A stretch of 64,000 nt of DNA from a virus. The notes below the pieces were generated by a model, which worked only from the letters and a program-made list of their open reading frames with translations, was not told the origin of the DNA and searched no databases. Location of the stretch: positions 1 to 64,000 of the IMG/VR virus record IMGVR_UViG_3300009514_000021; one strand, written 5' to 3'. Below are positions 10,633 through 37,651 of the stretch, piece by piece; the first letter of the stretch is position 1, and the number at the start of each line of letters is the position of its first letter. The translations under genes and the position numbers were made by a program.

Positions 10633-13056
10633 ATGAAGTCTCCCTACCCACGCAAAGGGCTCGAGTGGTCAAGCCTCATCGCCAAGGCTGGGCTCGCCAA
10701 GATGCACCCCGACCGCGGTGGGTACGTCGGCGTGGCTCGGGTGACACAAATCAACTACGTCGACTTCTTCGTGAAGCTCCGCGTGGTCATCGGCTCCCAG
10801 GACATCTTCGACCGCGTCCCTGTCCCCCTGGTGTTCCCGGGGGCCGGCACCCGGCACTTCCTCGGCTCGATGCCCGAGGTGGGCGACTACTGTGTGGTGA
10901 CCTGGCAGCCCCAGGAGAGCGGTGCCGACAACAAGGGCACCAAGACGCCAGTCATTATCGGCTGGCTCCTCCCAGGCGTGTGGGCCGGCAAAGAGTGGAT
11001 GACCACCCAGGGATACCCCGTCGACGAACACGACATGGGGAGCCAACACGACCGCGAGATCGTCCGTGGGGTGTACGACCGCATCAGGCACAAGCTCCGC
11101 CACATGGAGCCCGGCAACATCGTCGCTTCGTCGGGGCAGGGCTCAGACCTGGTGTTGGACGAGGGTGTCCTGTTGGCCAACCGACGCTGCAACGAGCTGC
11201 GTCTGCGGGACCAGGACCAGGCCCTCGTTGTCCGCAGCCTCCAGCAGTTTCACGCGATGGCGGGTGCCCGCATCTACAGTGGGATGGTTCAACGGGATGC
11301 GGCGACGCTCGCGACGACCATGGTCTCCGACGGGTTCGAGTGGGACGACGACCTCCAGACGGTCTTCAACGAGCCCGTGCCCGAGGGCGACCTCCTCCCG
11401 AGCGAAGAGCCCGAGGGGTTCCTCACCCCTGCGGATCCGCTCATGCGCGGCGAGAAGGAGTCCGTCGAGGGGTTCCTGGGCACTCCGCTGTTTGGTCTGC
11501 CGCCGAACCTCGACCCGTATGTGTTCCTTCGTCGAGGCGGGTTCATCGACGAGACCGGCTACGTCGTCGACGAGCGCCACAGGTCCAATGCTGTCTACGG
11601 TGGCAAGTCGATCTTCCGCGTTGCGAGCCAGAGCGCGGACAACACGACCATCAAGGCCGACGCGGACACGCTGACCGAGTGGCGTCTCGAGATGACCCAC
11701 ACGGCGGACGGTAGGTTACCGGTCACGGAACAAACGGACATGTTCGACGCCGAGCGCCTCCCCGCGGGCGATCCCGACGTCAGCAGTCCGGTCAGCGGCA
11801 ACCCCAACCGGCCGTTCCTCCAGTTCGTCTTGGGCAGCGTCGTCGGCAACGACCCTTTCTCGCAGGTCGGGAGAACCCAGTACGGGTTCCCCCTGGTCCC
11901 CATCATCTTCGATGGCAACCAGGCGTCGCCGCGTCTGGCCCCCGCGCGTCTCATCCAGGACCCGTCTTCGGCGGAGGCGCCGACGCCCATCGGAGAGCAC
12001 GCGGCCAGCCTGTTCCAGATGTCCCCGCCGATCTCCGGCGGCGGTCCGGACACCTTCTGGTCGGTCAACAAGAAGGGGCAGCTCCGTATCTCGATCGGTG
12101 GGCCGGCGGCCGAGAACTCGGTGGAGGCTGCGCTCACAGGAGGTCTCAAGCTGTCGGTGGCGGGGTCGTTCGACTTCCTCCTCCGCGACAGCGTCCGGTT
12201 GGGGTCGGAGGCCGGCAACAGCTTCGACAACGTCGGCGCAGAAATCTTCAGCCGTCGGGGCGCCGTCCGCATCTTCGGCGGTGGGTCGGTCACTGGCGCC
12301 GAAGGTGTCCTCCAGCGTATCTCCGGTTCCGAGGAGGGGGAGAGCGACCTCCCCAGCGTGGATGTGCAGGCCCAGACCAACCTGCGGCTCCAGGCTCAGA
12401 GGAAGGCCTTGATCAAGGGCTCCTCGGCCGAAATCAACGCGGCGCGAGTCGAGGTCAAGGGCCTCCAGGATGTCGTCATCGGGTCGGCTGACCATGTCGG
12501 GATCCAGGGCAAGAAAATCGACATCTCTTCGGGCGGCAAGTGCACCTCCAGCTTCGGTGGGCCCGAGGACAACCTCCCGACCAACGCGCCGCTACACGAG
12601 GAGACCTACTCCCCGTCCATCCCGGGGCCGACGATCACGGTCCACAAGGTTTCCTACAACGGGGGCAGCAGGGAGGAGAAGTTCACCTCCGGCAACCACA
12701 CGACCGAGATCACCGTCGGCAACATGACCTACAAGACGGCGGCGGGCACTTGGGAGGCTCAGGCGGGTGGGAACAAGCTGACCATGGGGGTGTCGTCTCT
12801 GGAGGCGCGTATCGTGGGTTCCGGCGGTATCCAGCTCAACGCGGACGCCGGCGCAGCGACCCTCAAAGGCCAGCTCTCAGTCCGGGTGGAGTCCAGCGCA
12901 GGCCCGGCGACCGTCGCCGGCACCTCGGTTATCCTCCAGGCCCCGGTGGACAACAACGCGGGCGGGATCGTCTGTGGTGGCTCCATCGACCCGCTCACAG
13001 GGAACCCGTTCAGCACCTTCGGCATCGGCGCGAAGAATCACATCGTGAGTGGATGA
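10633..13056 (+). CDS. Baseplate central spike (gpV/gp5-like)
   Basis: The ATG directly abuts the hub stop. The protein has 807 residues. Residues about 30-120 look like the OB-fold domain of spike proteins (GVARVTQINYVDFFVKLRVV, EVGDYCVVTW, TPVIIGWLLPG). The middle third is loop-rich. From about residue 470 to the end the sequence becomes regular and beta-rich, with Gly/Ser/Asn turns and alternating hydrophobics (GQLRISIGG, GLKLSVAGSFDF, RLQAQRKALIKGSSAEIN, VIGSADHVGIQG), as expected for a trimeric beta-helical stalk. Such spikes cap the tube and pierce the outer layer on contraction. The gene follows the hub, as in Mu/P2-type clusters. No metal-binding HxH tip is obvious at the C-terminus, so a separate tip protein may exist. 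Confidence 0.8.
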   Translation: MKSPYPRKGLEWSSLIAKAGLAKMHPDRGGYVGVARVTQINYVDFFVKLRVVIGSQDIFDRVPVPLVFPGAGTRHFLGSMPEVGDYCVVTWQPQESGADNKGTKTPVIIGWLLPGVWAGKEWMTTQGYPVDEHDMGSQHDREIVRGVYDRIRHKLRHMEPGNIVASSGQGSDLVLDEGVLLANRRCNELRLRDQDQALVVRSLQQFHAMAGARIYSGMVQRDAATLATTMVSDGFEWDDDLQTVFNEPVPEGDLLPSEEPEGFLTPADPLMRGEKESVEGFLGTPLFGLPPNLDPYVFLRRGGFIDETGYVVDERHRSNAVYGGKSIFRVASQSADNTTIKADADTLTEWRLEMTHTADGRLPVTEQTDMFDAERLPAGDPDVSSPVSGNPNRPFLQFVLGSVVGNDPFSQVGRTQYGFPLVPIIFDGNQASPRLAPARLIQDPSSAEAPTPIGEHAASLFQMSPPISGGGPDTFWSVNKKGQLRISIGGPAAENSVEAALTGGLKLSVAGSFDFLLRDSVRLGSEAGNSFDNVGAEIFSRRGAVRIFGGGSVTGAEGVLQRISGSEEGESDLPSVDVQAQTNLRLQAQRKALIKGSSAEINAARVEVKGLQDVVIGSADHVGIQGKKIDISSGGKCTSSFGGPEDNLPTNAPLHEETYSPSIPGPTITVHKVSYNGGSREEKFTSGNHTTEITVGNMTYKTAAGTWEAQAGGNKLTMGVSSLEARIVGSGGIQLNADAGAATLKGQLSVRVESSAGPATVAGTSVILQAPVDNNAGGIVCGGSIDPLTGNPFSTFGIGAKNHIVSG

Positions 13057-13653
13057 GTGGCTTTGACCACGGCGACCATACAGGCCCAGCTGGAGCTGAG
13101 TAAGCTCGTTGGACCTTTCGCGTTCAACGGGGTGACGTTCCCCTCGTTAGCTCTGGCGATCTCCCAGGCTGTCTCCCTCTGGGGCGCCAACCAGCCCAAC
13201 AACCTGGCCCTGACGGGGGCCTCGTCAGGTACCGCAGGGGCTGGCCCGGTTCAGGGACTCAGCCTCACAGTGGCACCCAACAGCACCTTGATCGAATCAT
13301 CGCTGCGGTCTAACGGTGTGTCGGGCCAGTTGGTTCCGAGCTTGGCTTTGACGGTAGCCAACGGCATCGCGACCGCGTTCAGCCTCTCGGCTTTGTACTC
13401 GGGGACTTCCGCGGGTGTCGGGGTGGGCTCGGACGTGTCCGTCATCACCATCTCGAACCCGGGCACGTTGGTCACCGAGCTGATTACCCAGCTCAGGGCG
13501 ATTGTAGGCAGCGGCAAGGCCGTCGAGTCTCTATGCCTTGGATTGGGCTTGGGTATCGCCTCCATGCTCCTGGGATCCGCTGGGTTCGGTACTGTTACGG
13601 GTTCCCCGAGTCCTATCAGCAGCGTCGGTACGACCTTCTCGGTGGTGATCTGA
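13057..13653 (+). CDS. Small Gly/Ser/Leu-rich protein after the spike, unknown
   Basis: This 198-residue protein uses a GTG start that abuts the spike stop, with only a weak purine-rich stretch as ribosome site. The N-terminal 50 residues include FNGVTFPSLALAISQAVSLW, a likely amphipathic helix. The rest alternates small and hydrophobic residues and has a Leu/Gly/Ala/Ser-rich segment near residues 150-185 (CLGLGLGIASMLLGSAGFG). It has no signal peptide and none of the PAAR motif repeats. I do not recognise the family. Its position directly after the spike is where a tip protein or spike-associated factor would sit. That role is inference. Confidence 0.55.
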   Translation: MALTTATIQAQLELSKLVGPFAFNGVTFPSLALAISQAVSLWGANQPNNLALTGASSGTAGAGPVQGLSLTVAPNSTLIESSLRSNGVSGQLVPSLALTVANGIATAFSLSALYSGTSAGVGVGSDVSVITISNPGTLVTELITQLRAIVGSGKAVESLCLGLGLGIASMLLGSAGFGTVTGSPSPISSVGTTFSVVI

Positions 13654-16600
13654 GTGAGCTTTGATTTCAGCGGCTATGTCCTTCGTGGTGTTCGGATCTC
13701 TCCGACGAACGCGGTGGTCTCTGCCGAGCCCTCCAACGGTGTCGTCCGTGACATCCGTGCCGTCCCTGGAGCCTACGCGCTCTCCGGGGAAGCTCCCGAC
13801 CTTGTGGAAGCCGCCGCTGACCAGTACCGCGCGTCCATCCTCAACAACGCCGTCGAGAGCACCACCGAGTACCTGCTCTGGGCTGCCAACAGCGCTCAGC
13901 TCGCGGTGGTCGACGACCCCACCTGGCTCCTTTCCGAAGGCTCTGGGCGCATCCCGTTGGGCACCCTGACCGTCACCGACCTGACTCCCGACAACCTGCC
14001 GGCGGGCGAGCCCCCGCCCAAAAAATACGGGACGTTCCCCGACGGCTCAGCCCGGGTCGTCGTGACCGACAACGGGCTGAGGTCCATCGCCAACATCGCA
14101 GCCGTGGTCGTGGCTCGAGGAGACGTCGACGACTATGACGACGACGGTTGGGTGGATCCCGACGATGTCGGTCTTGGGCGCTTAGGCTCGAACCCCTACT
14201 ACGTCATCGAGTCAGCCGCGATAGACCAGGACGCCGACGCCGGCATCGTCCGCCTCACCGATGCCCAGCTCACCACCCTCGACGGTGGGTTGTCGAACCA
14301 GCGCGGCGACGAGGTCATCGAGGTGCGCTACACCTTGTCGGCTGCCCGATTCTGGTGGTCGAGGAACGACCGCCACAAGACGCGGTTCGGATGGGACGGC
14401 CGGACCCAGAAGTGGGCGCCGCTCAAGGGCGGCGCCCCCAAAGACCTGGGCGCACTGGACTTCGAGTCGACCCACCGGGTCACCCCTGTCCCAACAGGCC
14501 TCCCCGTAGGGACGACCCTGCCCGGCTCCGAGGCCGATCCCGACTCCTTCGCGATGATTCGCCTGGGCACTTCCCCCGGCGCCAGCAGCTTCCCCGTCGC
14601 CGCCGACGGCGCCTTCACCGGCATCAAGGTGAAGTTCGATTCCGACCTCGAAGGCGGGTTCGACTTCACCAAGGACCCCCTCATCGCTGGAGTCCTGGGC
14701 CGCACCAACGGCATCCTCCAGTTCAACCCGAACTTCATCGCGACGCAAGCTGGACAGACCGTCTGGTACAGCTACCTGAGCTTCGAGGAGGACTCCGATG
14801 GGCGAGTGGGTCTCCTCCTAGACGCCAAAGAGGAGCCGCTGTTCATCGCCCCTATCCCTGGGCCGACTGATCACCCCTTCATCCACATCGGGTCGCGACG
14901 CCACCTCACTGTCCAGCTGGCGGATACCGATGCCGAGCTGGCGGGGGCAACCATCCAGGAGGGGGAGGTCGGAGTGTCCCTGTCCACGGGGCAGCTGAAG
15001 TTCAGCTCGGTGGACCTGGACAAGGCAGATCCCTCGACCACCGGTTTCAGTCCCCAGTACCTCGGCACCGGCGTCAACTACGCCGGCGTCGCGCTCAACC
15101 GGGTGCCACAACCGACCAGGAAAGCTGTCCAGCTAGTAGACGACACCGGGACGCCGGTGGATGTCACCGTCGACAACGACCTGTACGTGCCGGACTTGGT
15201 GTACCTCCCCGAGGAGTTCGCTCTGGACGACCCCGTGCGAGGTCTCGGGATCTCCGGGGTCTTGGATGTCCCCGACGGGACGGGTTCCATCCCGATCCTC
15301 CCGGGAACCCCCGCCCCGGTGCGCCCAGGCGGGGAGAGCGACACCGACCCTCAGCGCGGGCGAATCCGACAGGTCGAGGACGGGGTGTCAGACACCATCC
15401 TGTTCGCGCGCCCCAAGGTCATCGAGACCCTCAACATCGTGGATCGGGAGGTCGACCTCCCGACCCTGCCGTTCAAAGTCCCCCAGGGAACAGCGTACAT
15501 CGCCAAAGAGAGGGGTCCAGGCGGCTCTCGGGTGGTCTTCAGCTCCAAGGATCGCGGCGAGTTCGTGGGTGGGCCGGCCTTCTTCCTCCAGGCCAACCTG
15601 ACCCCGTCGACCTACACGACCCGGGCTCGGCTGCTGTCCCGGGTGCGCGACATCTTCATCTTCGAGGGCGGGGAGAAGCTCCGGTTCCACATCGACGGCA
15701 CCAGCTACACCTGGGAGGCTGACACCCTCCTGACAGCCATCCCCGGACGCAACGCTTACCTCGTAGAGGAGGTGGCCGACAGCATCGACGACGCCATCAC
15801 CGGGACGGGCAGTGCTCGGGTATTCAACGGCCACATCGCGCTCGAAGCAGGGGACCTCGACACCGGCGAGGTCGAGATCGGGTTCGCCACGACCGCCGGC
15901 GAGAAGGACCTGACTGGAGCTTCCGCGCTCGGGTTTCCCCCTGGCTGGAGAGCTGTAGGAGGCGTGGTCAACTGGCTCCCTGACGCCGGCATGTCCTGGG
16001 GGCTCTACCGCAGCCCGGCGAACCTCAATGGCGAGTTCGAGCTGTCGGACTACAACTCGAGGGCGCGCATCGAGGAGCTGCCTCTGGGCACGGTTCAGGG
16101 CGTGCCGTTCGTGTTCCTCAACCCGGTGCCGCTCCAGGATGTCGCGGGGCTCGACGAGGACATCTTCTTCCAGCTGACCAACGTCATCCAGGAGGGAGAG
16201 ACGATCGAGATCGTCAACCAGGTGTTGAGGCATTTCCAGGACATCAAACACGAGTTCGACATCGGTCGGTTCGCCTGGCTCGAGGATGGTCTCATCACGC
16301 AGACGGTGGAACGTCCGGTCCTCTCGTTGGGTCTGGGCAACCAGGGGGTCGTGGCCGAGTCCTTGCTCGGGGCGCCTGGCATCGGAGGTGGCCTGGCCAT
16401 CGCCGAGACAGGGGGCTCGTTCGAGTTGCAGACCTTTGGCGACGATTTCTTGCTCCCCGACGACGGCGCCCAAGGAGTCGCCCTGCTGGTAGACCGCGTC
16501 GGCCGGCGACACACCTTGGGAGCGCGCGGGTTCTTCAGCGAGGGGTCTGATGAGTTCACCGACGCCACCGCTGACTTCTCCGAGGCCGAGCCAGGGTACC

Positions 16601-19600
16601 GGCTCAAGATCACCCGTGGGGACGCGGCGGGCTCGTATGTGCTGACCGAGGTTGTGAGCGCTACCGAGCTGCGGGTATCGCCGGCCTTCGTCGCCGACGC
16701 CGCCGACAACCCAGTGACCTGGGAGCTGTTCGAGGGGTTCACGACCGACGTCTTCGACCCGGCCATCGTCGCCGACATCACCTTCGATCTGTTCAACCAC
16801 CTGCCCAACGAGCCTTTCGTCATCCGGACGCTCACCCCGCTGGGCACCGTGGACGAGGCCCTTGTGGCGGATCCGGGCGATGCGCTGGAGAACGGACGGT
16901 TCATCCAGGTGCGGTTCGGGCTCGAAGCCCCGACCGACGACAACACGGCCTCGGTGAGCGTGCTCGGCAAGACCGAGTTGGCTACCATCGCCAACGACCT
17001 CATCGTCATCCCGACCGATGAGCCTCGGTTCTCTGAGGCCGCCTTCACTATCCGTCTCGGCCCTGCCACGCTCGTTCCTGTCGGCGTCACCTCTTTCAGC
17101 GCCGACCCTGCGGGGGTCGAGTACCTGTTGGCTGACGGGGTCGACGGGGAGAAAGGGTTGCTCAAGTTCGGGTCCGCGATTCTGTCAGGCTTCGCCAACA
17201 CCAAGGTGTACTTCGCCGAGGAGTTCCTGCCCAGCAGTGTCCTGGCCGCCGGCGCGACGGAGCTGAACCCCGACACCGGAGACCTGTCCCTCTCCGATGC
17301 GGACGTCGCCACCCACGCAGGCAAGACGGCTTACTTTGTCCAACGGATGATCACGGAGAACCGCCTGGACGTGGCGGCCAGTCCCATCGTCGGGACCTTC
17401 TATTTCAACCACCCGATCCAGGTGGACCAGTCGGTCGAGGTCGAATACTTCGAGGCCGACTTGGAGGGCAAGAAAGTCGGCGACCAGATCGTCGAGTTCC
17501 TCTCGGTGTTCATCACCAAGGAAACCGCCGAGCGGGAGTCGGCCACGAGCTACCTGTTCAACGCGTCGCTCAAGACCGTAGACACCCGCATCGAGACCTT
17601 GGTCTACGTCGGGATCTTCCAGCAAAACTTCGGGTCCCAAGATTTCGAGATCGAGTACCTGCCTGACGGCCGCGGCCGCATCAGCTTTTCCAAGAGCTTG
17701 GCCGACTCCGCCGCGGTCACCGTCAGCTACGCCGTTTTCGAGGCCAACGGCGGCGAGCGCGTCTACGAGTCGTCGACCAAGCCCGTGTACCGCCCTCCCT
17801 TCTTCATCAAAGCCGGACTCGACCAGTTCGGTGTCCGCGGGGACCGCCAGGATGAGTTCCAGGTTGGTCAAATGCTCCGCATCGGCGAGAGCTGCTTCTA
17901 CATCCGGAAGATCACCTATTTCACCGACGAGGACATCACCGCCCTGGGCATCTTCCCCTCGACCTCGGGCGAGGAGGGCAGTAGGGCTCCGGCCAATGAC
18001 ATCCTGAGCCTCATCACCACGACCCCGATCACCTCGACTGTGGATCCCGACGGGGCTCTCCCCGTCGACGTCCCCGAGGCCCCCGCAGGGTTCATGCAGA
18101 CGGTGCCCATCGCCGACGCTCCCTTCGAGCCAGTCGTGCGAGGTCAGACCAGCATCACCTTCTTGGCGGATCTGACTGGGGTCGCCGTGCCGGGCCACAT
18201 CCTCGAGGTGGGCGGGCGCCCCTTCACCATCGCCGACCTCGCGCTGTCCGAGGACGGCACGCGCACCAAGGTCTCGTTGACGGCGCCGTTCAAGGAGGGC
18301 ATCAACGTCAACACCGACCCCACCGTGAAGGTGTCCATCCGTCCGGTCTACCCGCCGGGCACGCGGACGTTCCTCGGGGTGGGTCCGGTGGTCGCTTCAG
18401 AGCCTTTGGAGCTGGTGCGGTACACCGATGGCCAGCCCGGGCGAACCCTGATTCGAGGTGTCGAGTACGACCTCGAACCTGACACCGGCATCGTGACGCT
18501 CCTCGACCCCGGGGCTGAGCCGTTGGCCGCCGGGGAGCAGCTGTACCTGGCCTACACCAAGCTGCGGACACTCGAGCCTTTCGTGCAGCAGGGGATCCTG
18601 ACGTTCCCCAGGTACACCGCCACGTACCTCTACAACACCATCCCGTCGGACGACAACGGGCTCCTGGGCGGCCTCCTCACGACGACCTATACGTTCTCGA
18701 CCCCCGACGCCTTCTATTTCAGGACGGTGCCGTTGAGGAGTTTCCTGGGTGAGGTGGTAGAGAGGGCCCAGCAGGACCTGCAAGCCAGCAACCCGGCGGC
18801 CGGTCCTCTGACGACAGCTGTGCCGGCGACCGACAACTGGGACCAGGGCAGGTTGGCCATCCAGTCTGAGCGACGGAACCTGGTGGACTTCGACCGCGCT
18901 GCGCGCGTGTTCGTCGACTTCTACAACCAGGTCATCAACGGTTTCGAGCAGATGCTCGAGACCATGTCCGGAGGTCTCATCGGGGACCGGGATGGGAAGT
19001 TTCGGTTCGAGGTTGGTCGGGGCCTCGAGTACCCGCCACCAGGCTACGAGGACGCCATCACCGGGGAGCTGAACCCGCGCAACGTTTTCGCCGATGTCTT
19101 CACGTCCAAGAACACCCGAATCGACGTCTTCTTGACGACCGACCCGATCGTGCGCCCGCCAGGTGCCCGCCTCATCGGTGGTGAAATTGACGGGGTCTTC
19201 CCAGGGTCACCGGAGATCGCCGACCTCATCGAGGAGCAGAGCGCCTTCGTCCGCAACGACGTCGATGACCTCGTGATGACCAGCCTCAAAGCTCTCAAGG
19301 GGAAGATCGACCCGGACACCCTGACGCGCGGCCTCATCGCTTCTGGGCTCTACCAGCGTCTTGCTGAGCCCTCGTTCCTGAGTCGGCTCTTCCCGCTCAT
19401 CGCTCGTGTCTTCTTTCAGACCTATCCCGGCATCGGGGCCGACCTTCTCGGCGGCGACCCCGGTCGCTACAGCTACCAGACGTCTGACCCGATCACGGGT
19501 CAGACCGTGTCGACCTACAACACGGTCATCGCCAAGCTCGGCAACCCGGTCCTCGGCGAGTTGGACAACGTCATCGAGGGCTCCCTCGAGAAGCGCTTCC

Positions 19601-22600
19601 CCCGCGCTCGTATCTGGAAGTACGAGCCCCTGGGGTTCCCGGAGATGGACGACCTCCTGACGGCGGCCGGCCTCCCGACGTTCAGCGCGACACCGCGTCC
19701 AGCTGTCATCGCCACTCCACTGCTCCTACGGGACTTCCCTATTGACCCTGAAAGGGGAGGGCCCGACGTCGACCAGCTCGTGAGTCAAGGAGGCCTATTC
19801 TCGGACCTCGAGCTGGGCGACGTCACTTTCGTCATGCCGCCTTGGGAACCTGGTCAGCAGATCGCCTGGGGAGTCCCGACGGGCGAGATCCATGCAGCTT
19901 TCCACCTGGAGTCCGATGACACCCTGACGGGCGTATTCATCGACGAGGTGTTGCTCGGCTGCATTCTCACCTTCCGTACTGAGGACCCCGCAGCTTCGCC
20001 GGATCCAGGGTTCCCCATCACCGACGGTGACCGCCTCCTCGTCGACATCGGCAACGAACTGGCGAACCCATCGGCCGAGGACTTCCCCCTCGAGCAGGGA
20101 GCCACCATCTTTGGTGTCCCTACGATCGACGCCAAGGTCACCCCTTCAGACCCGCCGACCAAGGACGACCTGGTCGCAGCCACCAAGGGCATCCAGAACT
20201 TCCGGACTGGGTTCGACCTCTCCATCAAAGGCGACGGGACTGTGGTGGATCTGTCGTGGCCGGCCGAAGAGGACCCGGCTTACCCCGTCCAGGAGCTGCG
20301 AGGACAGAACCCACCTGACCCGCTCGAGTCCCTCCAAGGGGTTGCGCAGTTTCTGCGCGGGGACCTCAGCCCTCTGCGGATCCCCGCGCTCACTGGTGAC
20401 GAGCGCGACGACTCGGGCGACCAGCAGATCCCGTTCTTGGCTACTCAGAACACCGAGCTGGACCGCTTTGGCGAGGCAGCGGTGGGTCTCGCCAAACCCA
20501 TGGAGGTCACCGACGACCTCGGCAACTATGTGTACCCCGACGAGTTCATCGGCAACGACGGCGAGATCCGCGGGGACTTCGTAGCCAACGGGGCCACGTA
20601 CAAGGAGCCAGCGGCTCTGAACACATCCCTCGACGTGCACCCCGTCGCCAACAGCGGGTTGTCCCCTGGTGTGGGCGATCTCGAGTCTTACGACCTCCTG
20701 CTTGTCGAAGTCGATGATGCTGAGGACCGTATCGTGGTCGGCAGCCAGGGGCTTCTGTCTGTGGGGCGCGCCGAGACCTCTCTGGTCAGCGGGTCGGATT
20801 ACCAGAGCGTCATCGAGCCGCCGCGGTTCGTCACGCAAAGCAACGCGGGCACGCCCATCCGGTATCGGTTCAACAACGCCATCGTGTTCACCACGCCGGG
20901 CGCCGCATACCCACCGGATCCCCAGGTCGGACCGACCCCTGCGGGAGTCCGCATCATCGAGGACACCGTCACCGGCGTCACTGCGCTTGAGTTCGATGAC
21001 CTCTCTGGGTCGCTGGCCCTCAACGACGGCGTCACGGCCGGAGGTGGTGTAGGCAACCTCAACCACCTGTGGTCCGCGGTCGGGGCCAAGTTCTACAACA
21101 AGATCACCATCGAGCTGTTCGCCCGTACCGACCCCAACATCACCACGGCTCTCGCCCCTGGTGCTCTCCCCACACCTGGGCTCCCTGTTCTGACCATCGT
21201 CATCCAGGGGACCACGGTCACGGCAACCGAGCACCAAGGCAACCCTCTGCCGCCGCCGGGGCCTGTGACCAGCGTGGTTTTCGGCACCGACTCCCCCTTC
21301 ACGCCGCTGCCGGTCGACAACAACCAGATCCGCATCACCCACGGTCCGGGGTCATGGCTCTTCGCCGGCGCGGTGCCTCCGGAGACCGACTGGTTCCTGC
21401 CGCACACGGTCGGGGTGACCAACGACAGCATCTACGGCTACGAGTTCTCCATCTCGATCGACACGTACAACTTCGACGTGCCGGTCCTTCCTGGACCCTC
21501 GTTCAAGGGCGAGTCTACCACCGCGTACATCGACCCCGACCGGCTCACCTTCCACGAGCTGTTCGACATGCGACACATCAAGGCGCGGGGATACACCCAT
21601 CCGCTTTCGGCGCACGTACTCGAGGGCCAGCTGTCCGTCTTCGAAGTCACCGTGGCGGACCCCAGCGGCGCCGGTGGGTTCGAATCCAACGTCAACCGGT
21701 TCACCAACGGTTTCTCCGGTCTGCACCCAGATGGCTCTCCCGACCCCGACCCTTACACCTTCCTGACCCGGTCGATCACCGCATCCGACCCCGGGTCCTA
21801 CCTGGCCAACTCCCCCGCCGGTGGCACCTGGGCACCTGAACCCACAGGCGGAACCATCCGGGTCATGGGTTGGGAGGGGTACCTCAACACTCCGGTTCTG
21901 ACCGGTGGCGCGGCTGTGCCGGACGCAGTCAAGTTCACCGCCATCCCGTCGTCGCTCCGAGGGCCCGACGCGACCGACCCTATCTGCACAGGCAGAGGCC
22001 TCACCGAGTCTATCGACAACACCTCGGTCACGGCAGCTGTTGCTGCTCTGGGCTCGACCGATGCGGACAACAGGCTGCTTGACATCTCGATCATCGACGG
22101 GGCCATCAGCGACATCGAGAAGGGCGACATCCTCATCATCCGGGAATCGGATGACGCGGGGTTTGCCGCCACGACCAAGGCCGGCACCTACCTGGTGAGA
22201 CTCCCCGTCGAGCCCGATGCCTTGGGTGGCCTTTGGCGCACAACGAGTGGCTTGACTGCTGCTGACCAGATCGGCGCGTGGGACGGCTGGATCCCCTCCC
22301 CGGGGTACCCCAGGCTCCTCAGCCTGACCCTCGGCGGCCCCGGCGCGTTTGAGGTCACCGACCTGGCGGGCTTCCCTCTGGCGCCAACTGTCGGAGCCCC
22401 CGCGACACCTTCGGGGTTCCCGGCGTCGGGCCGGGTCTACGTGGTCAGGGATGTCCTGGACCTGCACTCGACCGACCTCGAGGAGTTCCGTACTGCTGTC
22501 GTCAGCGTGGCCTACACCAGCATCGACACCAGCGGCGCCAACCCGGTCTTCACAGGCCTGTCCGATTACAAGGACGCGACCGACAGTGTCATCAGTGCTC

Positions 22601-25095
22601 TCGAGTTCGAGGACCTGGTCGTAGGCCCCAGCGCGCCGAGCAATGGATATCAGGTTGCGGGGATGCACTACTTCCCCATCGCCATCCCGCCTACCACCGT
22701 CACCGGGTTCGAAGCCGACATCGGGGCTGGCGTTGTGCCACCGCTGGGGATGCGGTGGGTCACCCTTTCGGGCCAAGGCGATAGTGAAGTGTTCGAGGGC
22801 GACGGTGGCGCCGGCTCCGGCAAAATCGTCAACAGCGGCTCCCCAGGTGCCGGAGAGATGGGGGTCATCGAGGACCCACCGCTCCCGTCTACGGATTTCC
22901 AGGCAGAGGATGCGACCGTGTTCTCGGGAGTCCCAGGACGGCTCGACACGTCGGCTCTGACAGACGCCCAGTGGGACCTCATCAACAACCCGTCGACCTC
23001 ACCTTCCCCGGGCACCTCAGACCTCCGCGCGATGCTCCCCCGCGGCTACTTCTTCCTCACCAACTCGAAGTCCGGACACCCCATGGAGGGTGAGCTGGGG
23101 TTCTACGCTCAGGCGGGCATCTTCCTCGAGCCGAGCTTCCCCCGTCCGGTTCTCGACCTCGACCCATCTGCGGCGCCCCTGAACCACCCCCGCGTCGTGG
23201 ACAGCGACCACAGCCTGTTGGCCAGCATCGAGATCGGGATGCGCAACATGGAAACGCTCCTGGGCATCGACCTCGACGGCGCGGGGGCGAACACGGTCAC
23301 CGCACCTACGGATCCGGAGCGGGTCAATTTCGAGGTGCGCCGCATCCGACGGTTTCACGACGTCCAGGAGATCGTCGGTCAGCAGATCGAACCTCTCCGG
23401 TACGCCTACGAGATCCGCCGGGGACGCATTACCGGCTACGACGCGTCAGCCCGTACGCTCGAGGCCGTCGGCTTCAGCATGACCTACAACGCTGACGTCC
23501 CTTCCGCTCCTTTGGCGGCCGATGTATGGAACGACGGGCAGACCTACACAGGGACCAACCTGGGGGACTTCTCCGACGAGGACGTCAACGTCAAGCCGGG
23601 AGACCTGGTCCGAGTCCTCGACGAGAACGGAGACGTGGTCGACCAGGCGACCATCCTCCGGTACGAGCTGAGTCTCTTCGGTCCCCCGGATCCCGGCCTC
23701 ATCCAGCTGGCGCCTCCAGGTCTCATCGCACTGCCGCCTGGGGACTACACCGCCGACGGGGGTATGCGTTTCGAGGTGTACCTGCGCCAGCCTGTTGTGC
23801 CTCTGGAGCAGTCGCACGAGCAGCTCCTGGGCCTCATGACCGACCGGGTCGTCCATCAGACCCGGGCCGACTACACGGCTTTGGAGGGCGGGTACGTGCC
23901 GTCCATCGCGGCGCCGGCGGAGTACCCCGACAACGTCAACAAGCTGCACGACGACCTCAACGCCTCGGGGGCCACGGCGGCGGAGACCTTTGCGGGCCTG
24001 GGGGTTCGTGAAGGCGACATCGTCATCGTCGACCCGGCGCCCACGCTTCCGCAGTCGGGCGGCCTCCCGGTTGTGCCCGAGAAGGGTGCGCGTCCTCGAG
24101 GAGACGCCGGCATCTCCGATCGCCCTGCCTCCCACATCACCGGCGAGCCGAACCCGCTCGACGACAATCGCGGTTGGTACCGCGTTCTGTCCGTGGAGAC
24201 CGATCCCCTTCCACACCTGGTGGTCTCGGGCTCGACCTCGCTCACCGGCGACCTCACCATCGACGTGGTGTTCCCCGAGGCAGTGTCGGAGCGTGCCACC
24301 CGAGGGTACACGGTCTACCCGACTGTGGGCGCCTCAACCCTCAGCGGAGGCAACGAGGGTCAGATGGACCTGCGGCCGACGGACGTCCCAGACGGGGCAA
24401 CCAACTCGTATCAGGTGGGGTCGACGCGCGAACACTCCATCCGGCCTTTCTCTTACAAGGTCATCCGCCCCTCGAGTCTGTTCGAGGATGAGACCGTCGA
24501 CCTCCTCCTGTCGAGTCGGGAACGCCTCCTGTCGATGCTCGAGCAGCTCAAGGGCCTGCTCCTGGGCACCAAGAGAGGTACCTACTTCGTCTTCCAGAGG
24601 GACAACCACGCCCACGATGTCGGTTCACCCACCGATGAGAGCGTGGGTCTCGGGGTGTTGTCGAACGCGGTCATCGAGGGTTTGGTCGGTCGGGTCAACT
24701 ACTCCCCGTTCGTCAGCGACAGCGACGGCACCTCACTGCTCGACAGGCGGTTCTGGATCCTCGACAACCGCCTGGACACCCTGTCGCCCACCGACCCCGA
24801 CCCTGGCCTGGCGAGCACGATTTCGAGCAAGGTCGCTGGGGTAGGTGACACCCCCTACACGGCCTACAACGACCTGGCGGGATCGCTGGTGAGGCCTGTC
24901 CTTCCGGACCGCATCGACATCGTCCTCGACATCGTCGACCGGTTCCGTCAGCTCCGATTCACCTGGCTGACCTACCGCACCCACCGCGTGCTGGGAACCC
25001 TGGCTGGGATAGAGAGGTTTGATGCAGAAATAGAAGCACGCCTCGAGGCTCAGAGGCAGCAGCTGTTGCAGAATGAGTCCGCAGGAGATGTCTGA
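13654..25095 (+). CDS. Giant 3813-residue baseplate/tail structural protein, unknown family
   Basis: One frame stays open for 11.4 kb from a GTG that abuts the preceding stop. Most of the protein is beta-rich with Asp/Gly/Pro turns. A short module recurs with a pattern like TNGILQFNP...AGQTVWYSYL, with copies near residues 350, 440, 1155, 1205, 1330 and 1605. A G-x-L-x-x-G-x-AGSY module lies at about 967-1013. A helical section lies at about 1695-1885, a lectin-like beta segment near 2480, and a helical, charged C-terminus at 3750-3813. There is no signal peptide, transmembrane segment or enzyme motif. Both flanks are baseplate genes, so it is very probably a virion protein, perhaps a scaffold linking wedge and fibres. 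The function is not recognised. Confidence 0.7.
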   Translation: MSFDFSGYVLRGVRISPTNAVVSAEPSNGVVRDIRAVPGAYALSGEAPDLVEAAADQYRASILNNAVESTTEYLLWAANSAQLAVVDDPTWLLSEGSGRIPLGTLTVTDLTPDNLPAGEPPPKKYGTFPDGSARVVVTDNGLRSIANIAAVVVARGDVDDYDDDGWVDPDDVGLGRLGSNPYYVIESAAIDQDADAGIVRLTDAQLTTLDGGLSNQRGDEVIEVRYTLSAARFWWSRNDRHKTRFGWDGRTQKWAPLKGGAPKDLGALDFESTHRVTPVPTGLPVGTTLPGSEADPDSFAMIRLGTSPGASSFPVAADGAFTGIKVKFDSDLEGGFDFTKDPLIAGVLGRTNGILQFNPNFIATQAGQTVWYSYLSFEEDSDGRVGLLLDAKEEPLFIAPIPGPTDHPFIHIGSRRHLTVQLADTDAELAGATIQEGEVGVSLSTGQLKFSSVDLDKADPSTTGFSPQYLGTGVNYAGVALNRVPQPTRKAVQLVDDTGTPVDVTVDNDLYVPDLVYLPEEFALDDPVRGLGISGVLDVPDGTGSIPILPGTPAPVRPGGESDTDPQRGRIRQVEDGVSDTILFARPKVIETLNIVDREVDLPTLPFKVPQGTAYIAKERGPGGSRVVFSSKDRGEFVGGPAFFLQANLTPSTYTTRARLLSRVRDIFIFEGGEKLRFHIDGTSYTWEADTLLTAIPGRNAYLVEEVADSIDDAITGTGSARVFNGHIALEAGDLDTGEVEIGFATTAGEKDLTGASALGFPPGWRAVGGVVNWLPDAGMSWGLYRSPANLNGEFELSDYNSRARIEELPLGTVQGVPFVFLNPVPLQDVAGLDEDIFFQLTNVIQEGETIEIVNQVLRHFQDIKHEFDIGRFAWLEDGLITQTVERPVLSLGLGNQGVVAESLLGAPGIGGGLAIAETGGSFELQTFGDDFLLPDDGAQGVALLVDRVGRRHTLGARGFFSEGSDEFTDATADFSEAEPGYRLKITRGDAAGSYVLTEVVSATELRVSPAFVADAADNPVTWELFEGFTTDVFDPAIVADITFDLFNHLPNEPFVIRTLTPLGTVDEALVADPGDALENGRFIQVRFGLEAPTDDNTASVSVLGKTELATIANDLIVIPTDEPRFSEAAFTIRLGPATLVPVGVTSFSADPAGVEYLLADGVDGEKGLLKFGSAILSGFANTKVYFAEEFLPSSVLAAGATELNPDTGDLSLSDADVATHAGKTAYFVQRMITENRLDVAASPIVGTFYFNHPIQVDQSVEVEYFEADLEGKKVGDQIVEFLSVFITKETAERESATSYLFNASLKTVDTRIETLVYVGIFQQNFGSQDFEIEYLPDGRGRISFSKSLADSAAVTVSYAVFEANGGERVYESSTKPVYRPPFFIKAGLDQFGVRGDRQDEFQVGQMLRIGESCFYIRKITYFTDEDITALGIFPSTSGEEGSRAPANDILSLITTTPITSTVDPDGALPVDVPEAPAGFMQTVPIADAPFEPVVRGQTSITFLADLTGVAVPGHILEVGGRPFTIADLALSEDGTRTKVSLTAPFKEGINVNTDPTVKVSIRPVYPPGTRTFLGVGPVVASEPLELVRYTDGQPGRTLIRGVEYDLEPDTGIVTLLDPGAEPLAAGEQLYLAYTKLRTLEPFVQQGILTFPRYTATYLYNTIPSDDNGLLGGLLTTTYTFSTPDAFYFRTVPLRSFLGEVVERAQQDLQASNPAAGPLTTAVPATDNWDQGRLAIQSERRNLVDFDRAARVFVDFYNQVINGFEQMLETMSGGLIGDRDGKFRFEVGRGLEYPPPGYEDAITGELNPRNVFADVFTSKNTRIDVFLTTDPIVRPPGARLIGGEIDGVFPGSPEIADLIEEQSAFVRNDVDDLVMTSLKALKGKIDPDTLTRGLIASGLYQRLAEPSFLSRLFPLIARVFFQTYPGIGADLLGGDPGRYSYQTSDPITGQTVSTYNTVIAKLGNPVLGELDNVIEGSLEKRFPRARIWKYEPLGFPEMDDLLTAAGLPTFSATPRPAVIATPLLLRDFPIDPERGGPDVDQLVSQGGLFSDLELGDVTFVMPPWEPGQQIAWGVPTGEIHAAFHLESDDTLTGVFIDEVLLGCILTFRTEDPAASPDPGFPITDGDRLLVDIGNELANPSAEDFPLEQGATIFGVPTIDAKVTPSDPPTKDDLVAATKGIQNFRTGFDLSIKGDGTVVDLSWPAEEDPAYPVQELRGQNPPDPLESLQGVAQFLRGDLSPLRIPALTGDERDDSGDQQIPFLATQNTELDRFGEAAVGLAKPMEVTDDLGNYVYPDEFIGNDGEIRGDFVANGATYKEPAALNTSLDVHPVANSGLSPGVGDLESYDLLLVEVDDAEDRIVVGSQGLLSVGRAETSLVSGSDYQSVIEPPRFVTQSNAGTPIRYRFNNAIVFTTPGAAYPPDPQVGPTPAGVRIIEDTVTGVTALEFDDLSGSLALNDGVTAGGGVGNLNHLWSAVGAKFYNKITIELFARTDPNITTALAPGALPTPGLPVLTIVIQGTTVTATEHQGNPLPPPGPVTSVVFGTDSPFTPLPVDNNQIRITHGPGSWLFAGAVPPETDWFLPHTVGVTNDSIYGYEFSISIDTYNFDVPVLPGPSFKGESTTAYIDPDRLTFHELFDMRHIKARGYTHPLSAHVLEGQLSVFEVTVADPSGAGGFESNVNRFTNGFSGLHPDGSPDPDPYTFLTRSITASDPGSYLANSPAGGTWAPEPTGGTIRVMGWEGYLNTPVLTGGAAVPDAVKFTAIPSSLRGPDATDPICTGRGLTESIDNTSVTAAVAALGSTDADNRLLDISIIDGAISDIEKGDILIIRESDDAGFAATTKAGTYLVRLPVEPDALGGLWRTTSGLTAADQIGAWDGWIPSPGYPRLLSLTLGGPGAFEVTDLAGFPLAPTVGAPATPSGFPASGRVYVVRDVLDLHSTDLEEFRTAVVSVAYTSIDTSGANPVFTGLSDYKDATDSVISALEFEDLVVGPSAPSNGYQVAGMHYFPIAIPPTTVTGFEADIGAGVVPPLGMRWVTLSGQGDSEVFEGDGGAGSGKIVNSGSPGAGEMGVIEDPPLPSTDFQAEDATVFSGVPGRLDTSALTDAQWDLINNPSTSPSPGTSDLRAMLPRGYFFLTNSKSGHPMEGELGFYAQAGIFLEPSFPRPVLDLDPSAAPLNHPRVVDSDHSLLASIEIGMRNMETLLGIDLDGAGANTVTAPTDPERVNFEVRRIRRFHDVQEIVGQQIEPLRYAYEIRRGRITGYDASARTLEAVGFSMTYNADVPSAPLAADVWNDGQTYTGTNLGDFSDEDVNVKPGDLVRVLDENGDVVDQATILRYELSLFGPPDPGLIQLAPPGLIALPPGDYTADGGMRFEVYLRQPVVPLEQSHEQLLGLMTDRVVHQTRADYTALEGGYVPSIAAPAEYPDNVNKLHDDLNASGATAAETFAGLGVREGDIVIVDPAPTLPQSGGLPVVPEKGARPRGDAGISDRPASHITGEPNPLDDNRGWYRVLSVETDPLPHLVVSGSTSLTGDLTIDVVFPEAVSERATRGYTVYPTVGASTLSGGNEGQMDLRPTDVPDGATNSYQVGSTREHSIRPFSYKVIRPSSLFEDETVDLLLSSRERLLSMLEQLKGLLLGTKRGTYFVFQRDNHAHDVGSPTDESVGLGVLSNAVIEGLVGRVNYSPFVSDSDGTSLLDRRFWILDNRLDTLSPTDPDPGLASTISSKVAGVGDTPYTAYNDLAGSLVRPVLPDRIDIVLDIVDRFRQLRFTWLTYRTHRVLGTLAGIERFDAEIEARLEAQRQQLLQNESAGDV

Positions 25096-25328
25096 TGACA
25101 ACGCGAACCCCTGAAGACCTTCTGAAGGCCCTCAAAGCCATGGGCATCGACCCCGGCGATTGGGTCGAGGCCGGCGGCAAGGTGATGGAGCCACCGTTCA
25201 TTCAGCGGCAGAAGGGGCACCTGTTGAAGTTCAAGGAGATCCTCGAACAGCAGGTGGCCGACGACCAGGAGGCTCTCGCCAAGCTCCACCAGAAGAAGAG
25301 CCGACTCCTTCACGGCGGAGGTAGCTGA
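25095..25328 (+). CDS. Small helical protein (77 aa), unknown
   Basis: The ATG overlaps the stop of the giant gene by one base, and GGAG at 25083-25086 gives good spacing. The gene ends overlapping the next ATG by one base, so translation is probably coupled on both sides. The protein is charged and helical, with a predicted coiled-coil-like second half (LLKFKEILEQQVADDQEALA) and a short Gly-rich end. The family is not recognised. Its place between two large virion proteins suggests a small linker or assembly chaperone; this is inference. Confidence 0.6.
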   Translation: MTTRTPEDLLKALKAMGIDPGDWVEAGGKVMEPPFIQRQKGHLLKFKEILEQQVADDQEALAKLHQKKSRLLHGGGS

Positions 25329-28300
25329 TGGCCGACCTTCCGCGCGAGTTCAACCAGTGGGGAACGCTCACCCTCGAGCTGCCGGACTTCCTCAAGGTCA
25401 TCCGAGACGGGGTCAACACGGCTGTCGATTTCCTCATCACGGTCATGGACCTCCTTCTGTCGGCTTTGGAGATCGTCAAGGCGTTCACGGTCGCGTACAT
25501 CAACCCCATCGAGGCCATCGTCAAGCTGATCGTCGACGAGGTCAACGCGATCCTCAAGGACTTGTCTGAGCTGGGGCTCTACATCACGGGTGACTGGGCC
25601 CTTCTTGAGACGCCGTTCGATGACCTCAAGGGCGGGTTCACCGCGTACGAGCGGCGCATGATCGCCCGTCTGACCGATAGCACCGACCCCACTCGCCCGA
25701 GCACTACCGGCAAGACCAAGGTGTTCGCGGCCTTCTTCTACCAGTCGGTCAACTTCAGTCAGATCACCCAGCTGGTCTCCTACGTCAACCGGCTGGCCAC
25801 GTTCTTCAACGTCGACACTCCAACCAATCCTGCCCTGCCTACGCCGCTCATCACCGGGGTCAAGTACGGCCTGGAGTCCATCGGGGCCGCGGGTTTCAGC
25901 GCTCTTCCCGAGGCCTTCAACACCAACCCCAATCCGCCGCGGGTTGCCAGGGTCGACTGGCAACTGTCGACCTCAAGTGCGAAGAACCCGCTCGACTCGT
26001 TCGGGTTCCCTTCTCCTCCTGGTTTCCTGGTCACCATCTCGACACGTCGCGACGGCATTCGGATCGGGTACGACCGGGCACGCAAGACCGACGGCAAGGA
26101 CGACAAGAAGGGACAGGACAAGAAAGTCCAACCGCGTGAGTCCGGCCTCATGTTCGACAACACCGGGCGGCCCTTGGTGCTCCACGGCGGCGCGGACATG
26201 CTCCGGCTCAGCTCCCAGGTGGAGTACAACGCCAACACCACCACAGACGGACCCAAGGACGGGGTCTTCCGCTCCTTCGGTGTGCTCGACCCAGGCAAAA
26301 ACGTTCTCGTCCCCCTGGAGACGCTCAAACAGGGAGAGGGCGAGGACGAGACCTACTATTACCAACGGGCCTTCTACGTCTCGTCCGCGGCCACGGCCGC
26401 CTGGCTCACCCAGACGTACTCGTTCGAGATCACCTTCGACATGCTCCCGGAGGACCCCGAAATCGAGCCCGACGGATTGGGTGGCCTAATTCCTGGGGAT
26501 GATGCGGCGACACCCAACGCAGCTTACGTGCGTATCGCTGCGGTATCCGAGAAGGTCATTGATGCTGGTGACGGCCACCAGCGGTTCCAGTACGACATCG
26601 CCGGCTCCCCGTTCCTGAAAGCCTCCGGTGTGCCGTTGGTCATGATGGGGGCTACCCCCGACGGCAAGGAAGTCCTCCTGGTTGGTCAGGACATCGGACC
26701 GTTCAGCGAGCCCGTCGAGGTAACTTTCGCCTCGGCGAACACCAACGCGTACCTCCTTGCCCTCTACACAGCCCTGGCCGTCCTGGTGTTGAGCCGGGTG
26801 GATCTCCCCACCCTCCGAGAGCTGGAAGCCCGCACCGACGCCGAGGACGATACCAACACTCTCGGCGCCGACGCCGCCAAAGAGACGGTCATCAGCGCGC
26901 TGGAAGGCAAAATCAACAAGCAGGCCTTCGCCCGCCAGCTCACCGGTCTCGAGGACTTCCGGGACATCCTCAAGCTGTTGTACCCGGACATCAAGCAGCT
27001 TGAGCGCAAGGACCTCACCGCCCCAGCGTTCCGCAAGGACCTCCGACAACGAGTCCTTCGTGTAGCGGGGGAGATGTACCGGAAGTCAGGGCCTCGGCCC
27101 GACCTTGAAGGCTCGATCGTGGCGGCCACTGAAGACCTGCGCACGATCACCTGGCGCGAGCTGTTCGAGCAGAACGACGATGCGCTGGTGAAGCGCCTGG
27201 GGGAGATCTACCTCATCCCAGATGTCGTCGAGGAAGACCCCGCCAAAATAGTTTCCGAGACCATCTGGACGTCCATTGATGACTCCGAGGAGAAGGGTGG
27301 GTTGGCCGCGAACCCTTGGGGCATTGGCCTCCCGGAGCGCGCCGCGGAGTCCTTGTTTTACGCCAAAGACGCCATCTTGGCGCGGCAGCCCCAGTTCATC
27401 GAGGCGGGTTCTTTGGAGGGCGATGAACCTTGGGACCGCATCGTCGAGGCTGCCGGGCAAGACATCGCTGATGTCCGGTTGGCTATCCCCACCCGGGCCG
27501 AGCGTAAGGTGGTCCAACGCCAGGTGGACGACGAAGGCAAAGTCACGCTCCTGCATGGGTGTCGCCCGCAGAACAGGGCCCAGTATTTCCAGACGCTTCG
27601 GGACGCCAAGCGTCTCGATGGCTCCGCGGACTCCGCGCCGGTCTTCTACCTCAACAAGGTGGCCCTGACGACGCTGTCCCCGAACGACCCGGGGGGTGAG
27701 AACGCCCTGGTCAAGCGCGGGGGCGTCGTGTTCGTACGGTCCATCTTGGGCGGGGCCTTGGACAACGTCATCTTCCGTCAGGCGCGACTGGTTCTTGGGT
27801 TCGCCTCTGCGGCCATCGGACGGCCCTCCAAGGACACCAAGTGGTTCGCTCTCCGGCCTTTCGCGTTCCTGCCCCCGCTGGGAGACGTCATGGACGTCAT
27901 CTCCAAGTGGCTCGACGCCATCCTGGCCGCGGTCAAAGGCGCCGCCAACATCATCGTCCAGTTCATCGATTTCATTGAAGCTCGGATCGTCAAACTCCAG
28001 CAGATGATTCGGGAAATCAACGCCCTCATCCAGTCGGTGTTCTCTTTCGCCTTGCCCAAGTCGTCTGGCCTCATCTTGTTGTCCAACGGCACCGATGGAG
28101 TTCTGTCGGACCTGGTCGCGGCCGAGAACAAGCCCTCGGATAGCCCGTTGGACTACGGGGGCGGGATCGCAGTCGTCATCCCCTTCATTCCAGGGGCGTT
28201 GTTCGACCTCATCGGGATGATCATCGAGATGTTCAAGGCCGAGGGAGGCGTAGACCCCGCCGACTCGACGTTGCCCGACGCCGCGGGACCCCCGGCCTTG

Positions 28301-28366
28301 TTCGAAGAGGTTCCTGAAGAGCTGGAGGCGCCAGATCCCGGCAACGGTGTCCCGGAGGTGTTGTAA
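25328..28366 (+). CDS. Large structural protein (1012 aa) of the baseplate block, unknown
   Basis: The ATG overlaps the upstream stop by one base, with GGAGG at 25317-25321. Residues about 18-80 are hydrophobic and helical (FLKVIRDGVNTAVDFLITVM). Near residue 115 is a segment GGFTAYERRMIARL followed by a Thr/Pro-rich loop and FFYQSVNFSQITQL. Residues 330-470 are mixed beta. A helical charged section lies at 490-620. A second hydrophobic helical section lies at about 850-915, and a final apolar stretch at 945-970 (VVIPFIPGALFDLIGMIIEM). The helices look amphipathic rather than classically membrane-spanning, since Asp, Lys and Glu recur. I infer a structural baseplate component because of its coupling to its neighbours. 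Tail-tip membrane contact is possible but unproven. Confidence 0.6.
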   Translation: MADLPREFNQWGTLTLELPDFLKVIRDGVNTAVDFLITVMDLLLSALEIVKAFTVAYINPIEAIVKLIVDEVNAILKDLSELGLYITGDWALLETPFDDLKGGFTAYERRMIARLTDSTDPTRPSTTGKTKVFAAFFYQSVNFSQITQLVSYVNRLATFFNVDTPTNPALPTPLITGVKYGLESIGAAGFSALPEAFNTNPNPPRVARVDWQLSTSSAKNPLDSFGFPSPPGFLVTISTRRDGIRIGYDRARKTDGKDDKKGQDKKVQPRESGLMFDNTGRPLVLHGGADMLRLSSQVEYNANTTTDGPKDGVFRSFGVLDPGKNVLVPLETLKQGEGEDETYYYQRAFYVSSAATAAWLTQTYSFEITFDMLPEDPEIEPDGLGGLIPGDDAATPNAAYVRIAAVSEKVIDAGDGHQRFQYDIAGSPFLKASGVPLVMMGATPDGKEVLLVGQDIGPFSEPVEVTFASANTNAYLLALYTALAVLVLSRVDLPTLRELEARTDAEDDTNTLGADAAKETVISALEGKINKQAFARQLTGLEDFRDILKLLYPDIKQLERKDLTAPAFRKDLRQRVLRVAGEMYRKSGPRPDLEGSIVAATEDLRTITWRELFEQNDDALVKRLGEIYLIPDVVEEDPAKIVSETIWTSIDDSEEKGGLAANPWGIGLPERAAESLFYAKDAILARQPQFIEAGSLEGDEPWDRIVEAAGQDIADVRLAIPTRAERKVVQRQVDDEGKVTLLHGCRPQNRAQYFQTLRDAKRLDGSADSAPVFYLNKVALTTLSPNDPGGENALVKRGGVVFVRSILGGALDNVIFRQARLVLGFASAAIGRPSKDTKWFALRPFAFLPPLGDVMDVISKWLDAILAAVKGAANIIVQFIDFIEARIVKLQQMIREINALIQSVFSFALPKSSGLILLSNGTDGVLSDLVAAENKPSDSPLDYGGGIAVVIPFIPGALFDLIGMIIEMFKAEGGVDPADSTLPDAAGPPALFEEVPEELEAPDPGNGVPEVL

Positions 28367-29256
28367 TGCCCTCGTTTTCCAAGATGAGCATCTGGCCTGT
28401 CGGCTACTTCCGGCGGATTTGCAGTTGGCTGCTGCGGAACCGGCGAGACGTGTCTGCCAGGGTCGCCGTCATCAACGCCGAGCTGCGCCGCATCGGGTTT
28501 GTCACGGTCTTCTACGCACAGGAAGAGCAGGAAGACGGGACGGTGCGGGCGACTGAGCGGCGTACCGGGTTCGCGGTGACACGCGGATCGTCGCTCGAGC
28601 GTCTGGTCCAGGCCTACATTGCGGGCGGTGGCAACCCGCTGGACATCTCCATGTTCCTGCACCCGGACACCGACTTCATCACCGAGCTGTCGGAGGAGTT
28701 CGACGCCCGCACCACCTCGTTCTATCCCCACGGTGGTGTGGCGGCCCCGCAGTCGGTGGAAATCAACGACCCTGTGGGGGATCCCAGCTCGTCGGGATTC
28801 GAGTCTTACCGGGGAGGGCAGATCCCATTCGACGGCAACCCTCAATTCCGTCTGGGAGCCTGGGTCGACCGAGGAGCCTGGGACGACGAGACCATCGTGA
28901 GAACGATGCACCTCATCCGGCGCTGGTCCAACCAGGGCATCCGAGAGAAGGTCAAAGACATCGAGTGGCGAGTCATCAAGCTCAGCGATCTGTACGAGCA
29001 ACTACGGCGTGAGCGCGACGAGGTGTTGGTCGAGGCCTTCGGAGATGCCCTGAACGCGCTCACGGGTTACGACAACCCGGAGGTGTTCCTGAACGCCCAA
29101 CGTATTCAGGGTCTGATGACCGAGATGTGGAAGCTGATCTATCAGCCGACCGGTGACGGACCCCTCGATAGCACCCAGGCGAACGTGGAAAACGTGGGGC
29201 TGCTGGGGTTCACGTACGAGGATCGACAGTCGGAGGAACTGCTCACCCTGTCTTGA
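28366..29256 (+). CDS. Baseplate-block protein (296 aa), unknown
   Basis: The ATG overlaps the upstream TAA by one base, and GGAGG at 28354-28358 supports it. The protein opens with a basic segment rich in Arg and Trp (residues 8-30), then a mixed alpha/beta part (AVINAELRRIGFVTVFYAQ, HPDTDFITELSEEF), and a charged helical stretch at about 175-230 (RRWSNQGIREKVKDIEWRVI, LYEQLRRERDEVLVEAFGDA). No known family is recognised. It is the last gene before the first sizeable intergenic gap and closes the unassigned block. A structural or assembly role in the baseplate is inferred from context only. Confidence 0.55.
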   Translation: MPSFSKMSIWPVGYFRRICSWLLRNRRDVSARVAVINAELRRIGFVTVFYAQEEQEDGTVRATERRTGFAVTRGSSLERLVQAYIAGGGNPLDISMFLHPDTDFITELSEEFDARTTSFYPHGGVAAPQSVEINDPVGDPSSSGFESYRGGQIPFDGNPQFRLGAWVDRGAWDDETIVRTMHLIRRWSNQGIREKVKDIEWRVIKLSDLYEQLRRERDEVLVEAFGDALNALTGYDNPEVFLNAQRIQGLMTEMWKLIYQPTGDGPLDSTQANVENVGLLGFTYEDRQSEELLTLS

Positions 29257-37638: not shown

Positions 37639-37640
37639 AC

Positions 37641-37646
37641 CAGGAG
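37641..37646 (+). promoter_or_regulatory. Ribosome binding site deciding a TTG start
   Basis: CAGGAG lies five bases before the TTG at 37652. An alternative GTG at 37610 in the same frame would overlap the upstream gene by 29 bases and has no purine-rich site. The TTG also places the GGYGQDQYG motif right at the N-terminus. Confidence 0.6.
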
Positions 37647-37651
37647 TAACG

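Follow-up and report, generated by a model that had tools for sequence, protein, structure and literature searches.

What is a protein of 3813 residues and of unknown family doing among the genes of a phage baseplate? The gene that raises this question, here called BIG, lies in the window, a stretch of 64,000 nt of IMGVR_UViG_3300009514_000021, which is itself a 67,277-bp IMG/VR virus fragment. BIG starts with GTG and has zero internal stops over its 3813 codons, where ~99 stop codons would be expected by chance from the base composition of the window (P ~1e-43), and its GC content by codon position (0.65/0.47/0.83) is a strong coding signature. The encoded protein has a mass of 408 kDa, a pI of 4.35, and 3 Cys. 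The upstream gene c198 ends at 13653 and directly abuts the start of BIG, and the 3′ end of BIG overlaps the next gene by 1 base. The original prediction of one uninterrupted frame with abutting or overlapping neighbors holds in both respects. The genes of the cluster are listed below.

163-3069, tape-measure-like (TMP-like) frame at the start of the cluster
5425..10632, + strand, baseplate hub, with homologues in phage G (gp185) and Tunturi_5 (gp254, a "tail protein with lysin activity")
10633..13056, + strand, candidate for the central spike, homologous to Tunturi_5 gp253 (profile E 2.9e-7), weak DUF2345
13057..13653, + strand, c198, conserved and Gly-rich, upstream of BIG, no family
13654..25095, + strand, BIG
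25095..25328, + strand, s77, small protein, the usual 3′ neighbor of BIG
25328..28366, + strand, d1012, conserved partner gene of BIG
28366..29256, + strand, e296, conserved gene in the interval between d1012 and gp25
29302..30480, + strand, gp25-like sheath initiator (phrog_975, E 5e-4), homologue of phage G gp187
30480..34025, + strand, gp6/J baseplate wedge protein (phrog_6, E 4.8e-25), homologue of phage G gp188
34022..35419, + strand, I465, candidate wedge partner, whose counterpart in phage G is the N-terminal part of gp189
35488..57874, + strand, g716-h1739-i219-j1170-k1195-l2110-m269, putative fibre/appendage block, so called from size, repeats, and position

BIG is a single gene and not a fusion artefact, because 49 aligned full or near-full homologues span its entire length. 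It is kept as one polypeptide of 3446-4168 aa in dozens of contigs, and an assembly artefact was ruled out by these many independent intact copies. Searching IMG/VR with a five-member alignment, we confirmed 197 relatives, the complete copies of which share 34-48% identity with the BIG of the window. Exceptions to the intact form are split copies in L064 (2192 + 1593 aa; L064:9992-21126) and L050 (2017 + 692 aa). A further contig, L060, carries an intact BIG that is apparently near-identical to that of L064, and its neighboring genes give the same identities as those of L064, which suggests that the split in L064 is a sequencing error or a recent lesion.

In a tblastn search of 50,697 phage records, BIG had a single match, LR745208.1, over its full length, and a divergent member of the family used as query again returned this record alone; no cultured phage of the family came to light. 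LR745208.1 is an unannotated 485-kb uncultured phage, the same genome as IMGVR_UViG_3300025030_000038, and its homologue is full-length (3642 aa, ~36% identity) and adjoined by s77 and d1012. The long contigs of the family range from 222 to 485 kb, several of them with a match to phrog_2, which we take to be the large terminase subunit. The plasmid collection gave no match to BIG, and in the genome collection BIG was found in three metagenome-assembled bins only (Terriglobia, Actinomycetota, and one unnamed). Since these are probably phage contigs that were binned together with bacteria, we do not call a host from them. The BIG-bearing contigs from the Terriglobia and Actinomycetota metagenome assemblies (genome_contigs L078 and L080), together with a cultured relative of gp6 in the Acidobacteriota jumbo phage Tunturi_5, give a weak hint of the hosts.

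Family searches agree with the prediction that BIG is of unknown family and has no enzyme motif. Neither the protein nor its profile matched Pfam or PHROGs, including any enzyme or protease family, and a PDB sequence search with either gave nothing beyond chance. PDB profile searches with the five-member alignment and two sub-alignments returned chance matches only (plastocyanin, SprA, mS31, and a microcompartment protein). BIG matched neither phrog_6 (gp6/gpJ) nor a related profile, the phrog_6 gene of the cluster being a separate one, and it had no sequence-profile match to adaptors of the gp10/XD type. A whole-length match to an annotated fibre or enzyme family would have spoken against the original prediction, and Pfam, PHROGs, and PDB-sequence searches gave none, nor any match to a depolymerase domain. 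BIG has no annotated relative, its sole match among annotated phage records being the unannotated LR745208.1, and literature searches found no description of the protein. A paper on the moraphage lineage (PMC12619734) covers mainly Bacteroidota phages and is not taken here as related to the BIG lineage. Baseplate structural proteins are a known kind; new to the libraries searched are the BIG family, the size of its protein, and its place as a component added in an entire lineage.

The place of BIG in the genome is the first line of evidence for its role. More than 50 contigs show the same order, as far as each reaches: b316-b464-hub-spike-c198-BIG-s77-d1012-e296-gp25-gp6/J-I465. The predicted baseplate character of these neighbors is borne out for gp6/J by its profile match and, with weaker profile support, for gp25 (E 1e-3 against PF10934, under the curated cut-off), while the identities of hub and spike rest on homology to genes of phage G and Tunturi_5. 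I465 matches phage G gp189 with E 3e-12, and by profile with E 5.8e-16. Beyond I465, the block g716-h1739-i219-j1170-k1195-l2110-m269 is largely syntenic in the eight standard-arrangement contigs that were followed further. Within this block, i219 (42891-43550, + strand) has clear homologues in phage G gp190 and Tunturi_5 gp222 (phrog_5417, unknown function), and so represents a small tail-cluster protein common to very distant huge phages. The l2110 gene (50729-57061, + strand) had no PHROGs match and contains long repeat runs of the N-x-I/V-x-x-N type, typical of parallel beta-helix, as in tailspikes. An open frame (57886-63999, + strand), 2038 codons long or longer, runs out of the window and by eye resembles j1170 (43587-47099); L094 has a j1170-like frame of 1912 aa at the equivalent place. 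Two minus-strand ORFs (59572-61824 and 62695-63978) are antisense to this frame and look mechanical.

Comparison with distant huge phages indicates what is shared in this cluster and what is added. The tail cluster of Bacillus phage G (gp183-gp190) has homologues of most genes and shares the backbone order TMP-184-hub-186-gp25-gp6-189-190, with counterparts of b316/b464, hub, gp25, gp6, I465, and i219 in the same order, and Tunturi_5 has homologues of hub, spike, gp25, gp6, i219, and j1170. However, phage G is without BIG, d1012, and c198. Profiles of BIG and d1012 had no match in the whole genomes of either phage G or Tunturi_5, while positive genomes in the same searches confirmed that both profiles work. 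BIG-s77-d1012-e296 is therefore an addition between spike and gp25, and gp25, gp6, and the following gene are all retained beside it.

Four rearranged genomes are the exceptions to this order. The gp6 gene lies ~25 to 60 kb from BIG in three of them (G001, G006, and G010) and was not detected in G002; in G001, which is LR745208.1, the distance is ~25 kb and gp6 is on the other strand, unlike in the standard cluster. Despite the displaced or undetected gp6, s77 and d1012 are still beside BIG in G001, G002, and G006. In G010, BIG adjoins the fibre genes g716 and h1739, and d1012 lies at another place in the genome; d1012 is thus present in all four genomes checked and beside BIG in three. The c198 gene adjoins BIG in nearly all contigs, and in LR745208 (L002) it is near BIG on the opposite strand.

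The divergence of BIG also follows that of the baseplate. Pairwise distances of BIG correlate with those of gp6 (r = 0.96), d1012 (0.95), b464 (0.92), e296 (0.92), and spike (0.90), and its own rate of divergence is close to that of these core genes. Because shared ancestry is also contained in such correlations, they indicate co-inheritance and not contact. This pattern would be the behavior of an integral part of a machine, whereas from a host-range module one would expect recombination and faster divergence. Aside from the four rearranged genomes, BIG thus has a fixed position and is co-inherited with hub, spike, gp25, and gp6.

The second line of evidence is predicted structure. AlphaFold2 models were made for residues 1271-2470 (47 natural sequences) and 2614-3813 (43 natural sequences), about two thirds of the protein. 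In the first model (pLDDT 72.6, pTM 0.45) the domains are good and their mutual arrangement is not; the second has pLDDT 78 and pTM 0.71. Each consists of small beta domains in a chain, with a few helices, the longest of 37 residues. The parts that can be described are as follows.

17503..17748, + strand, residues 1284-1365, Ig-like/beta-sandwich domain (AlphaFold2 model, VIA-align)
18085..18345, + strand, residues 1478-1564, small beta-barrel resembling tail and tailspike proteins (VIA-align)
18349..18555, + strand, residues 1566-1634, jellyroll resembling a tail-fibre N-terminal or gp10-XD adaptor domain (VIA-align)
18859..18969, + strand, residues 1736-1772, longest helix of the middle third, beside the most conserved stretch of BIG (1751-1800)
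21004..23103, + strand, residues 2451-3150, most variable part, mostly beta
23101..25092, + strand, residues 3150-3813, conserved C-terminal region with a terminal helix (3782-3812)

In VIA-align comparisons, the barrel at 1478-1564 matched the K1 lyase tailspike 7w1d_D (Z 11.0; 75 aa, 1.8 A), a Mystique tail protein (9n71, Z 8.4), the JBD30 baseplate (Z 8.2), and T5 Dit (Z 7.6). The jellyroll at 1566-1634 matched the Carin1 tail/fibre chain 8ck1_B (Z 6.7, 24% identity), LME-1 9efk_AE (Z 6.0, 22% identity), and XD3 of CBA120 TSP4 (7rfo, Z 5.5), and is the only such module in the modelled parts. Values of Z <8 are common by chance, and neither small barrels nor Ig folds are confined to phage proteins; the top rows for these two domains are mostly phage tail proteins, and it is this predominance, not Z alone, that would give the predicted likenesses their weight. 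The Ig-like domain at 1284-1365 resembles the P1 baseplate chain 9vzk_Y (Z 5.5), the T4 baseplate chain 5iv5_B (Z 4.9), and pilin Ig domains, at middling Z values that indicate fold class only. Residues 3247-3388 are modelled as a barrel like EF-Tu domain 2 and lambda gpJ (8k35_A, Z 7.6; 77 aa, 2.8 A), for which EF-Tu and ATPase barrels score nearly equal to lambda gpJ. Self-comparison of the BIG profile revealed degenerate internal repeats, with 25 pairs at >=30% probability against 1 in the reversed-profile control. Of the structure-model search that had been proposed at the outset, the Foldseek part, run with the 1200-residue models against PDB and BFVD, gave nothing below E 0.001, and the single-domain likenesses to tail proteins come from VIA-align. 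Several top BFVD rows were named as baseplate or virion structural proteins; their TM was below 0.12, so we did not use them as evidence.

BIG had also been predicted to have no long coiled coil and not to be a second tape measure, which holds for the modelled two thirds. A tape measure was rejected on these beta-rich models, and the TMP-like frame at 163-3069 is separate.

The systems that BIG may best be compared with are small-beta-jellyroll adaptors that bind fibres, at the baseplate periphery or in branching: T4 gp10, the XD1-XD3 anchor of CBA120 TSP4 (PMC8825819), and RaK2 gp528 (PMC10253068). XD2 and XD3 are the domains through which gp10 and TSP4 attach to other trimeric tail proteins (PMC8825819), and gp528 is predicted to branch fibres by five XD domains (PMC10253068). 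As modelled, residues 1566-1634 of BIG resemble TSP4 XD3 and tail-fibre N-terminal domains. However, gp10 (~600 aa) and TSP4-N (~335 aa) are both trimeric and far shorter than BIG, which has no sequence match to either, and the XD domains of the solved cases work as trimers. The T4 gp6/gp7 wedge core (gp6/J being phrog_6) offers another comparison, given that BIG is in the same gene cluster and co-inherited with gp6. The BIG phage keeps its own gp6 and a separate next gene, I465, in addition to BIG, which has no sequence match to the wedge proteins. The idea of a fused gp6/gp7/gp10 fails for gp6, since a separate gene encodes it; equivalents of gp7 and gp10 could be remote ancestors of BIG.

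Our best explanation, which we consider rather probable, is that BIG is a virion structural protein in a lineage of huge phages with contractile tails, and an obligatory extra scaffold on the periphery of the baseplate that connects the gp25-gp6 wedges with the giant fibres encoded downstream. The half of this model that rests on the tests made here is that BIG belongs to the baseplate cluster as an obligatory addition; fibre docking is suggested by analogy of fold and by gene order. The virion-type character originally predicted is supported, and presence in virions would follow from cluster and fold. We infer the location, wedge contact, fibre docking, and copy number (stoichiometry) of the protein. 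In the assembly that we propose, the hub-spike and the gp25-gp6-I465 wedges would assemble first, and BIG, a ~400-kDa chain of beta-sandwich, barrel, and jellyroll domains, would then join the wedges with s77, d1012, and e296. The large scaffold would offer adaptor modules on which the giant fibres h1739, j1170, k1195, and l2110 may dock, much as gp11 and gp12 do on T4 gp10 or branched tailspikes do by XD domains. More tentatively, and with somewhat less than even chances, several copies of BIG with d1012 and e296 may form a megadalton outer baseplate layer carrying at least four giant fibre types, a new architecture of this lineage that is absent from T4, phage G, and Tunturi_5. The predicted scaffold forming an extra baseplate layer is supported in kind, as an addition to, rather than a replacement of, canonical wedge genes, of which a separate layer would be one possible form. 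A peripheral scaffold or fibre platform would say more than an extra layer and fit the data just as well, because the only modelled stretch with recognizable domains points to adaptor-type modules.

BIG could instead be a central tail-tip device, a long fibre or sleeve in the centre that extends or encloses the spike and hub and is the first part to touch the membrane. In most contigs BIG directly follows spike and c198, and its barrels have matches in lambda gpJ, Dit, and tail-tip proteins of Chi, all on the tail axis. However, spike and hub are away from BIG in G001/LR745208 and in G010, while s77-d1012 stay in G001, the modelled parts are without a long coiled coil or an obvious thin-fibre pattern, and the module like XD or fibre N-terminal domains is of an adaptor type used at the periphery. 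We consider this device unlikely. Less probable again is a receptor-binding fibre or tailspike-like adhesin with residues 2451-3150 as its variable host-binding region. Such a protein might well be large and beta-rich, with one third clearly more variable and some domains like those of tailspikes, but the divergence of BIG follows gp6 closely and nearly its whole length is conserved (near-evenly over residues 200-2450 and 3150-3800), in which typical host-range modules differ; in addition, there are separate fibre genes downstream, and no parallel beta-helix, lectin, or depolymerase domain was recognized in BIG. Least probable of all is that BIG is not a permanent part of the virion (an assembly platform, or an injected or packaged protein, its gene in the cluster by chance), for though it has no recognized whole-length fold and its family is known from gene sequences, this is opposed by its strict synteny with structural genes, its tail-type beta modules, and the lack of any enzyme or protease family.

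Taken as a peripheral scaffold or not, BIG is an ancient, near-4000-residue predicted structural gene in scores of huge-phage contigs, and because it has no Pfam or PHROGs entry and no annotated relative, the tail tips of this lineage have in effect yet to be described. Should it indeed be an extra scaffold, baseplates would grow by adding an entire new part to a gp25-gp6 core that stays unchanged, and BIG would be a marker gene for the lineage.
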